Positions 60,354 to 63,531 of a DNA stretch of 64,000 nt are shown piece by piece (position 1 is the stretch's first letter; each line of letters opens with the position of its first letter). Source of the stretch: Armatimonadota bacterium. GTDB lineage: Bacteria; Armatimonadota; Fimbriimonadia; Fimbriimonadales; Fimbriimonadaceae. The position numbers and the translations under genes were made by a program. The notes under the pieces were generated by a model, which searched no databases, was not told the DNA's origin, and saw only the letters and a list, made by a program, of their open reading frames with translations. The DNA lies in contig WGMG01000002.1 of the NCBI GenBank assembly GCA_016125185.1, positions 186,001 to 250,000 of the forward strand. Reading direction: 5' to 3'.

Positions 60354-61044
60354 ATTTCTGCTTACCAAGTGTTTTCCTTCGACCTTCGATAACAATCGTA
60401 AACTCGCCTTTGGCAGGAACTTGTCCCTCATTAGGGATTGTCGGTAAGTTTTCCCGGAAAACTTGCTGGTTTCTTTTCGTGACCTCGCGGCAAATAGCGT
60501 AGCGTCGGTCCCCCAACACCTCAGCCGCAACTTCGAGGAGTTTACGGAACCGATGCGGCGACTCGAATAACACTAATGTATAAGGAGATTCCGTAAACGG
60601 CATCAATTCCTTGCGAATATCGCCCGGCGTCCTTCCTAAGAACCCGAGGAAGGCAAACCGCTGGGCAAAGAAGCCGGAGAGCATGAGGGCATCGATCACC
60701 GCGCTGGGGCCCGGAATGGCGTCGACTTCGATGCCGCGGTCGTGGGCTAAATCAACCAGCCGGGCGCCGGGATCGCTGATGCCGGGTGCGCCCCCATCGG
60801 TGAGTACAACGGCCCGTTTACCGGCTTCGACTTCGTCCAGCAGGCGGTCTAGTTGGGCATCCTGCGAGTGGTCGTGGGCGACCTTCATCGGCTTTTTCAC
60901 GCCAAGGTGAAAGGCGAGCTTGGCGCTGATGCGCGTGTCTTCGACGATCCAGAAATCAGCTTCCGAAAGCGCCTCGGAGCATCTCGGGGAGATGTCCCCG
61001 AGATTTCCGATGGGCGTGGCGACAAGGGTCAGCCGTGGCGTCAG
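60340..61044 (-). CDS. rsmI: 16S rRNA (cytidine-1402-2'-O)-methyltransferase, probable CTG start
   Basis: 234 residues. TLVATPIGNLGDISPR, IVEDTRISAKL, DGGAPGISDPGARLVDLA, IPGPSAVIDALMLSGF and LVLFESPHRFRKLL identify RsmI, which methylates the 2'-O of C1402 in 16S rRNA with SAM. Family similarity begins at TLVATPIGNLG, only six residues after a CTG that overlaps the upstream TGA (CTGA). No ATG, GTG or TTG exists at that place; an ATG 50 codons upstream lies in the Lys-rich tail of the previous gene and is out of family. A non-standard CTG start is therefore the best choice. Confidence 0.85.
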   Translation of the reverse strand: MTPRLTLVATPIGNLGDISPRCSEALSEADFWIVEDTRISAKLAFHLGVKKPMKVAHDHSQDAQLDRLLDEVEAGKRAVVLTDGGAPGISDPGARLVDLAHDRGIEVDAIPGPSAVIDALMLSGFFAQRFAFLGFLGRTPGDIRKELMPFTESPYTLVLFESPHRFRKLLEVAAEVLGDRRYAICREVTKRNQQVFRENLPTIPNEGQVPAKGEFTIVIEGRRKTLGKQKYVKI

Positions 61045-62780
61045 GGCTTCGGAGCTAGCGAGCTCTTCGAGTCGTCCTTCTTGCTGGTGGAGCCTTCCTT
61101 CTTCTTGGCTGCGTCCTCCGCCTTTTTGGCTGCCTCTTCCTGCTTTTTCTGCTCGGCCATGTCGTCGTCGAACTTCTTCTTTTCGTCCTTCCATTGCTTC
61201 TGCTTGGATTCAAATTCCGATTCTTGATCGGGGGTGAGGAGCTTGGCAGCTTTCAACACGAGATATTCAGCGGAGCAATCCGAGAAGGTTCGCTGTCCGG
61301 TTTCGTCGTACTTGGTATTGCGGTCCATCGCCGTCGTCAGTTGATCGAAAGCCTTAGCGCCGTTCTTGTTGTCCTTGTAGTATTCAATGACGTCCTTGCG
61401 GTAGGCCCAGTTGTCGTAGAAGCCCAGATAGCGCTCATAGGATTGAATGCGCTCGTCCTTCATCTTGGTTTTGTCCGTGGACGGCAAGTCGTAGAGGTGC
61501 TGAACGACCGCCACTTCGACGAGAGCGCCAATATCGGCCTTCGGATCGGACTGGCCGATCTGCTTGGCGAGGTCGTAAATATCGCGGAATTCCTTCTCTT
61601 GGTCTGGCCCCGACGGCGAGCCCATAGCCTTCGAATAGCGATAGGCCGCTTCGTAGGCTTTGATCTCAAACTTCGGCTTCAGCTCTTTCTGAATCGCGTC
61701 CAGCTTTTCCTTGTACATCTTCTGGACCTGCGCGGCGATGTACTGCTGCTTGATTTCGTCTTTCTTCTTGTCGAAGTCGGCCGGGAGCGCAATCTTCTTA
61801 TCGATCAGCTTGAAGATGGCGTATCCGCCCACAACCTTCGTCGGCTCCGTATAGGTGCCGGTCGTGAGGGTGGGGATGACTTTGTAGTCGGGCATGCTAT
61901 CGATGTCGGTTTGCTTGAGTTGAAGAAGGTTCTCGCTCTTCTTCTTCTTGCCCGGGTCCGGCGTGGCCTCCGAATACGTTTCCATCACGTCTTCGAAGCT
62001 CTTACCCGCCTTTAGGTCGGCGTACGCTTTGTCGATCTTTTCCTTCGCCTGAGCGTCGGTTACCTTGGCGTCCATGCGAACCAGGACTTCCTTCACGTAG
62101 GAGGTCTCGAAGGTCGACTTAATCTGGTCGTCGGTGGGGTTGATGCTCGCCTTCCATTTATCCTGAAGGTATGCGCCCGAAGCCTGCAGCGCCAAGAGAA
62201 TTTTCTTTTGGCCGTCCTTCAGCAACTTGTCGATCTGATCGGTTTGATCCTTGTAGAAGCTGGAGATGCTCTTTCCTGGAGCCTGTTTGGCGATGAGGTC
62301 GTCAAGGTCCTTGTCGGTGGAATCCGGCTTTAGCTGTCCGGCCTCTCTCAGCGATTTGGTGACGTAGTCCCGGAAGGCCTTTTCGCTTTCGATATGGAGC
62401 GCCTTCTTGATCGTCTGTTCGTCGCCGCTGTAGCCTTCTCGCTGGGCGATCATGTAAAGATCGGCCGAGGATATTGCCTGAGTAATGGCTCCGGCCACGA
62501 TTTGGAGCCGGTAGTCCGGCATTGCATCGAGGATTCCCGGCGGCAGCTTCGATAGTTGATCGTCAACTGCCTTGTCGACCATATCGTTCGGAAGGTAGAC
62601 ATCGCCAACCTGGGCAAAATTTGCCACCTCGTTGCCTTGGAGGTCATGCGCTTTCAGCGACTGCGCGCGACCGCAGTTCGAAAACACCATACCGAAAACT
62701 AGAACTGCACCAAATACGAGCACCAAAGCTTGGCCACAGCCGCCCTTGATGAACTTTTCTTGAAATTTGTTAATCGACAA
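61041..62780 (-). CDS. SurA/PpiD-like periplasmic chaperone with parvulin domain
   Basis: A 579-residue protein starting at TTG 62780. A signal anchor (ALVLVFGAVLVFGMVFSNCG) carries a Cys that might be lipidated. Residues ~55-210 are SurA_N-like helices. A parvulin-like PPIase core is at about 220-320 (AKEKIDKAYADLKAGKSFEDVMETYSEAT...VVGGYAIFKLIDKK), with several consensus residues missing, so catalysis is doubtful. A helical region and a long Lys/Glu tail follow. It probably chaperones envelope proteins. It is first in an operon with rsmI (CTGA overlap) and wza. Confidence 0.8.
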   Translation of the reverse strand: MSINKFQEKFIKGGCGQALVLVFGAVLVFGMVFSNCGRAQSLKAHDLQGNEVANFAQVGDVYLPNDMVDKAVDDQLSKLPPGILDAMPDYRLQIVAGAITQAISSADLYMIAQREGYSGDEQTIKKALHIESEKAFRDYVTKSLREAGQLKPDSTDKDLDDLIAKQAPGKSISSFYKDQTDQIDKLLKDGQKKILLALQASGAYLQDKWKASINPTDDQIKSTFETSYVKEVLVRMDAKVTDAQAKEKIDKAYADLKAGKSFEDVMETYSEATPDPGKKKKSENLLQLKQTDIDSMPDYKVIPTLTTGTYTEPTKVVGGYAIFKLIDKKIALPADFDKKKDEIKQQYIAAQVQKMYKEKLDAIQKELKPKFEIKAYEAAYRYSKAMGSPSGPDQEKEFRDIYDLAKQIGQSDPKADIGALVEVAVVQHLYDLPSTDKTKMKDERIQSYERYLGFYDNWAYRKDVIEYYKDNKNGAKAFDQLTTAMDRNTKYDETGQRTFSDCSAEYLVLKAAKLLTPDQESEFESKQKQWKDEKKKFDDDMAEQKKQEEAAKKAEDAAKKKEGSTSKKDDSKSSLAPKP

Positions 62781-62840: not shown

Positions 62841-62869
62841 TTGACAGGTAGACAAAAGAAGCGTATAAT
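62841..62869 (+). promoter_or_regulatory. Consensus promoter of lexA
   Basis: TTGACA at 62841-62846, 17 bases, TATAAT at 62864-62869: both hexamers and the spacing are perfect. A GGTAGAC half-site directly follows the -35. Confidence 0.95.
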
Positions 62870-62870
62870 G

Positions 62871-62892
62871 CGTCTACCGTTACAGGTAGACG
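62871..62892 (+). promoter_or_regulatory. Probable LexA operator
   Basis: Perfect palindrome with arms CGTCTACC (62871-62878) and GGTAGACG (62885-62892), 6-base spacer. It covers the transcription start and leader, right before the lexA ATG. A further half-site GGTAGAC is at 62847-62853, which could bind a second dimer with CGTCTACC as an 18-base-spaced pair. The motif is unlike the LexA boxes of E. coli or Bacillus. Confidence 0.8.
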
Positions 62893-62898
62893 TGCAAA

Positions 62899-63531
62899 AT
62901 GGCGAAAGGACTCACAAAGCGACAAGAGGAAATTCTGGATTTCATCCTACAGTACGTTGAATCGGAGGGATATCCTCCCTCGATTCGAGAAATCGGTCAG
63001 AAATTTGAGATCGGCTCCCTGCGAGGGGTGACCGTTCACCTCGACGCCTTGGAGCGGAAAAGCTACATTTCCCGGTCCAACACGCCGCGTTCGATTAAGC
63101 TAACGCACCCCAAATTCACCCCCGGCAATTCCCGTGTGACGATGCTTCCGCTCGTCGGTACGATTGCCGCCGGCACCCCAGTTCTCGCTCAAGAAGAAAT
63201 CGAAGGAATGATTCCGGTTCCTTCGGAAATGGTCCGCAACGTCGATGGCGCGTTCCTGCTCCGCGTCAAAGGCGATTCGATGATTGGCGACGGCATCATG
63301 CCACGCGACCTCGTCGTGATCCGCCCGCAGAAGACCTTCCACGGAAATGACGTGATGGCCGTTCGCGTTGGCGAAGAGGCGACCGTCAAACGTATCCATA
63401 AGACGCCGAAGGGCGTCCAGTTGCTGTCTAGCAATCCCGATTATGCGCCGATCGAGGTTGATCCGACCGAAACGGAAGTAATCGGCAAGGTCGTGGGCCT
63501 GTTCCGCGACTACGAAGGCATGAGCTTCTAG
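62899..63531 (+). CDS. lexA: LexA repressor
   Basis: A 210-residue protein. The N-terminal winged helix (1-70) has GLTKRQEEILDFI, YPPSIREIGQKFEIGSLRGVTVHLDALERKSYI (recognition-helix region 37-50). The cleavage site is A91-G92 in TIAAGTPVLA. The Ser-Lys dyad is S127 in KGDSMIGDGI and K164 in ATVKRI. It represses SOS genes and self-cleaves when RecA is activated. ATG 62899 follows its own operator by six bases, so it should be self-regulated. No SOS gene is adjacent on this strand. Confidence 0.95.
   Translation: MAKGLTKRQEEILDFILQYVESEGYPPSIREIGQKFEIGSLRGVTVHLDALERKSYISRSNTPRSIKLTHPKFTPGNSRVTMLPLVGTIAAGTPVLAQEEIEGMIPVPSEMVRNVDGAFLLRVKGDSMIGDGIMPRDLVVIRPQKTFHGNDVMAVRVGEEATVKRIHKTPKGVQLLSSNPDYAPIEVDPTETEVIGKVVGLFRDYEGMSF

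Follow-up and report, generated by a model that had tools for sequence, protein, structure and literature searches.

A predicted GTAGAC-N4-GTCTAC LexA motif in Armatimonadota and a putative split operator at lexA

The lexA gene and its promoter

The window, that is, the whole stretch of 64,000 nucleotides analysed here (G000:C2:186001-250000), belongs to an Armatimonadota genome of 4.52 Mb. It carries lexA on the plus strand (62899..63531, ATG at 62899), encoding a protein of 210 amino acids with a LexA DNA-binding domain and an S24 peptidase. The product matched the whole-protein profile TIGR00498 with 191.3 bits (cut-off 110.95), and a domain search found both PF01726 and PF00717. When the translation was read against solved LexA chains, the cleavage site fell at Ala91-Gly92 and the catalytic pair at Ser127/Lys164. 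Together, these features bear out the assignment of the gene as lexA, which an earlier note on this DNA had made. A genome-wide profile search returned the window's lexA as the only LexA-model match in its own genome, and no second S24 protein emerged from the same search. The nearest named relatives of the protein were Fimbriimonas and Armatimonadetes records, with a top identity of 93%. A PPIC-type (parvulin-like) gene lies divergently on the minus strand (61041-62780) and shares an intergenic region of 118 bp with lexA.

As the earlier note had claimed, lexA is preceded by a TTGACA-17-TATAAT promoter, which we read from the sequence with the -35 hexamer at 62841..62846 and, after a 17-bp spacer, the -10 hexamer at 62864..62869, both on the plus strand. 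TTGACA is invariant in seven close relatives, and the genus conserves TATA(A/C)T together with an invariant G in front of it. Three putative operator half-sites are written on the same strand. Half-site A, GTAGAC (62848..62853; GGTAGAC at 62847-62853), was present directly after the -35 as described before and is followed in the spacer by a conserved AAA. Half-site B, GTCTAC (62872..62877), begins two bases past the -10 and is the inward-facing partner of A at a spacing of 18 bp. The third half-site is again GTAGAC (62886..62891; GGTAGAC at 62885-62891). Half-site B and the third half-site are contained in the left and right arms, respectively, of the palindrome CGTCTACC-N6-GGTAGACG (62871..62892), likewise found where it had been noted. 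Its arms (62871-62878 and 62885-62892) match perfectly over 8+8 letters, enclose the spacer GTTACA and end 6 bp before the lexA ATG. Judging by the position of the -10, transcription would start under the palindrome. GGTAGAC occurs 7 times in the window (3.3 expected), with three of the copies inside 45 bp at the lexA promoter, and exact GTCTACC-N6-GGTAGAC occurs a single time. We also considered GTATAAT as an extra half-site and dropped it. The same G stands before the -10 in Y-polymerase promoters that have their LexA box elsewhere and was therefore taken as promoter sequence; a count on other promoters covered few cases.

GTAGAC half-sites in front of repair genes

The earlier note had proposed that the palindrome is the LexA box of this lineage and would recur in front of DNA-repair genes, its absence there counting against the idea. 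A scan of the genome found no second promoter copy: the lexA copy of GTCTACC-N6-GGTAGAC was the only one with fewer than two mismatches, and three further copies with two mismatches were all located inside genes. As a control in the same genome, the pattern read backwards gave 28 matches, compared with 4 for the real one. What did recur before repair genes was the half-site, in an inward-facing arrangement with 4 bp in between (N4). The proposal thus held for the half-site and failed for the outward N6 geometry.

In the window's own genome, the recA box is CTAGACACGCGTCTAT, with TAGAC-ACGC-GTCTA sitting past the likely promoter of recA. A search for GTAGAC and GTCTAC separated by 4-22 bp found, apart from the lexA pair, GTAGAC-ACTA-GTCTAC before an AlkB-like dioxygenase gene and, in the promoter of a glyoxalase-family gene, GTAGAC-ATAA-GTCTGT. 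An imuB-like (second Y-family) gene close to a DnaE-type polymerase gene has GTAGAC-TTAT-ATATAC upstream. With at most one mismatch, TAGAC-N4-GTCTA matched 41 sites, 20 of them outside genes as called by a simple codon-based method. Ten of these intergenic sites precede recA, the alkB-like gene, a Y-polymerase gene, ruvB, uvrB, rmuC, tag and three DinB-superfamily genes. The same search at the control spacing N5 gave 29 sites, 9 of which were outside genes and none before a repair gene. The DinB-superfamily genes (PF05163/PF12867) with LexA-like boxes upstream are located at G000:C5:11099, C6:1701862 and C6:1439854. At a glyoxalase/bleomycin-resistance-family gene (L147, G000:C6:1921382-1921410), a near-N4 box is accompanied by a third half-site past the -10; no other promoter in the genome comes as close to the arrangement at lexA.

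Among relatives, a shared box before recA and the error-prone polymerase genes, as looked for in an SOS regulon, was found. Inward N4 dyads with at least 10 of 12 matching letters were present upstream of recA in 20 of 26 cases and upstream of Y-polymerase genes in 16 of 23. Any other spacing from 0 to 24 reached at most 3 at recA, and other spacings up to 14 reached at most 2 at the polymerase genes. Permuted half-sites at N4 gave means of 0.13 and 0.32 for the two sets of upstream regions, with a maximum of 2. At uvrB the box was detected in only 4 of 28 upstream regions, those of the own genome and a few others, and most relatives had no box there. A direct repeat with ACAGGTAGAC as its unit was rejected, as it occurred at recA in at most 6 of 26 cases at any spacing (inward N4, 20). 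The view that the boxes at lexA and in the regulon differ from CTGT-N8-ACAG, GAAC-N4-GTTC and GTTC-N7-GTTC was upheld, since their half-site letters are other than CTGT/ACAG and GAAC/GTTC and a direct repeat was unsupported.

Exact copies were counted by hand. In 41 genomes, GTAGAC-N(0-12)-GTCTAC occurred 12 times at N4, and each of the remaining spacings not divisible by three gave 0-2 copies. Spacings that are multiples of three were probably raised by coding sequence, because many of these matches sit inside genes. Across 113 genomes, exact N4 palindromes showed no clear excess (about 21 against 18 in the backward-read control), and several of them precede genes without a known repair role. 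The case therefore rests on the position of the boxes in front of repair genes. The LexA recognition helix, SLRGVTVHLDAL, was nearly invariant where GTAGAC was present. Since this half-site recurs ahead of recA and further repair genes, both in the own genome and in relatives, it is very probable that LexA of Fimbriimonas-type Armatimonadota recognises GTAGAC (often GGTAGAC) as its half-site. As separate observations, one exact N4 box (G038:C45:3392-3407, L220) lies about 250 bp upstream of a gene for an XRE/S24 LexA-like repressor, and a lexA upstream region labelled Omnitrophota (L112) contains GTAGAC-TTCT-GTCTAG, so that the motif may reach beyond Armatimonadota.

Conservation of the putative lexA operator

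The complete box shared by the regulon genes was not found at lexA, where half-sites only were present. Scored with a matrix derived from 31 sites other than those at lexA, a training set that includes the regulon sites and excludes the lexA promoter, the best N4 match in the window's lexA promoter reached 1.2 bits, compared with 15-23 bits for regulon sites of the own genome. The half-sites themselves are well conserved. The columns of the lexA promoter that are invariant across seven close species comprise TTGACA, GTAGACAAA, CGTATA-T, and CGTCTAC with most of AGGTAGA, and given these columns the pattern exceeds chance. In all 20 genus genomes, lexA has the pair GTAGAC-N18/19-GTCTAC, spaced by 18 bp and, in four promoters, by 19 bp. 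Both half-sites of the pair are exact, with GTAGACAAA following the -35 and GTCTAC beginning two bases past the -10; these 20 promoters of the N18 class had been selected on TAGAC...GTCTA, and the invariance of half-site A was counted among them. The split pair with the -10 in its middle hardly occurs anywhere but at lexA.

The right arm of the palindrome behaves differently from this pair. Only the seven closest species retain the third half-site, which reads GGTATAA in one of them and GGTAGAC or GGTAGAA in the others; it is absent from most of the 20 N18-class lexA promoters of the wider genus. The palindrome spacer measures 6 bp in four of the seven, the window included, and 5 bp in the other three. 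In three lexA promoters from more distant Armatimonadota (L084, L085 and L087), an N4 box lies between the -35 and the -10, where Fimbriimonas has half-site A; the box is complete in L084, and its second half is weaker in L085 and L087. Because of these boxes, the split operator at lexA looks like a derived state. Chthonomonas-type lexA promoters (L063-L082) keep one GTAGAC half-site, which takes one of two positions, past the -35 or over the -10/start, and is followed in several of them by N4-GT. Taken together, the comparison makes us fairly confident in predicting that GTAGAC-N4-GTCTAC is a new LexA motif of Armatimonadota and that the operator at lexA is a split, derived form.

Modes of binding and relation to known LexA systems

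According to the model we favour, LexA would sit on two facing GTAGAC half-sites 4 bp apart at the promoters of recA, the translesion polymerase and other repair genes, and RecA-stimulated self-cleavage, the general SOS mechanism expected from family membership, would free these promoters. At lexA, LexA would meet half-site A between the -35 and the -10 and half-site B directly past the -10, 18-19 bp apart, with the third half-site before the start codon in the clade of the window. It may bind such lone half-sites weakly, probably through two dimers that flank the -10 and contact one specific half-site each. LexA would block RNA polymerase in this way, its affinity being lower than at recA. 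Autorepression through the split operator is probably weaker as a result, so that repression of lexA would be looser than that of recA and the supply of LexA could be kept up during recovery. One point against this scheme is that a dimer suited to N4 is not expected to treat half-sites separated by 18 bp as a single unit, so that the mechanism at the split operator is hypothetical. We suggest tentatively, as one possibility, that LexA of this lineage uses two operator geometries, a compact N4 dyad in the regulon and a split operator at its own gene with half-sites about 24 bp apart around the -10. To our knowledge, such a binding mode at its own gene has not been described for LexA.

Other readings of the promoter differ in what occupies the half-sites. 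The protein might bind across GTAGAC-N18-GTCTAC as one unit, looped or extended and bracketing the -10, as a variant confined to lexA that leaves N4 binding in the regulon unaffected. The constancy of the pair, exact and 18-19 bp apart throughout the genus, would fit this idea. We nevertheless regard it as unlikely, as the other regulon genes use N4 and the 24 bp between the half-site centres make no whole number of helical turns. Binding of a single dimer to the outward-facing palindrome over the transcription start seems very improbable, despite the perfect 8+8 dyad and the 6-bp spacing that four of the seven closest species share. Besides lacking a second promoter copy in the genome, this spacing was not enriched upstream of recA or Y-polymerase genes, and both the 5-bp spacers and the loss of the right arm in most of the genus speak against it.

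It is still harder to credit that a repressor other than LexA, for instance an XRE/S24 protein, reads GTAGAC. Some relatives do have extra S24 proteins, one of them with an N4 box upstream, but the profile search of the own genome yielded one LexA-model match and no second S24 protein, and the half-site accompanies the LexA recognition helix at lexA promoters phylum-wide. The palindrome arms could also act as an RNA hairpin that controls translation before the lexA start codon, and as RNA the strand does fold into a 9-bp stem. We give this almost no weight: with the -10 at 62864-62869, the transcript would start within the left arm and lack much of the stem, the fold z-score is only -1.5, the genus keeps the left arm without the right one, and the half-site is also found in promoters of other genes. 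The reading we retain is the one with N4 dyads in the regulon and separate half-sites at lexA.

LexA binding motifs differ between phyla, and lexA is normally a core LexA target with a full box. For the latter reason, a lexA gene with single half-sites and no full box in 20 of 20 genus genomes is unusual, and with the split operator one could test directly how a repressor adjusts its own amount in relation to the genes that it controls. The motif would likewise make the SOS regulon of the phylum predictable. By 2021, 17 LexA motifs had been reported (PMC8565304). We found no paper on LexA in Armatimonadetes or Armatimonadota, although a related motif in Verrucomicrobia or Patescibacteria is conceivable, and GTAGAC-N4-GTCTAC appears so far unreported as a LexA switch sequence.

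The Balneolaeota motif is similar in being a phylum-specific LexA motif derived from comparative genomics; it differs in being a direct repeat, which gel shifts have confirmed (PMC7739468), whereas the repeat described here is inverted and predicted from sequence. The closest parallel in geometry is the box of Gram-positive LexA (DinR), GAAC-N4-GTTC, also an inward dyad with an identical inner AC-N4-GT and an overlapping core regulon (recA, Y-polymerases, uvr). Its half-site is (C)GAAC instead of (G)TAGAC, and the lexA promoter differs here in having no complete box. Read as GGTA-N10-TACC, the Armatimonadota box also shares its outer spacing with the Geobacter motif GGTT-N10-AACC (cited in PMC8565304), from which it differs by its half-sites GGTAGAC/GTCTACC. 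Outside Armatimonadota, many of the best-matching LexA proteins were Geobacter-type records. Their lexA promoters (L090, L093-L097, L104, L109, L111 and L113) have GTAGTC-N4-GACTAC with small variations, and the recognition helix is GTLPVMKHLDAL; the N4 geometry is thus alike, and the letters and the helix are unlike those of Armatimonadota. The predicted Armatimonadota box would extend the series of N4/N10 dyads between the Gram-positive and the Geobacter types.
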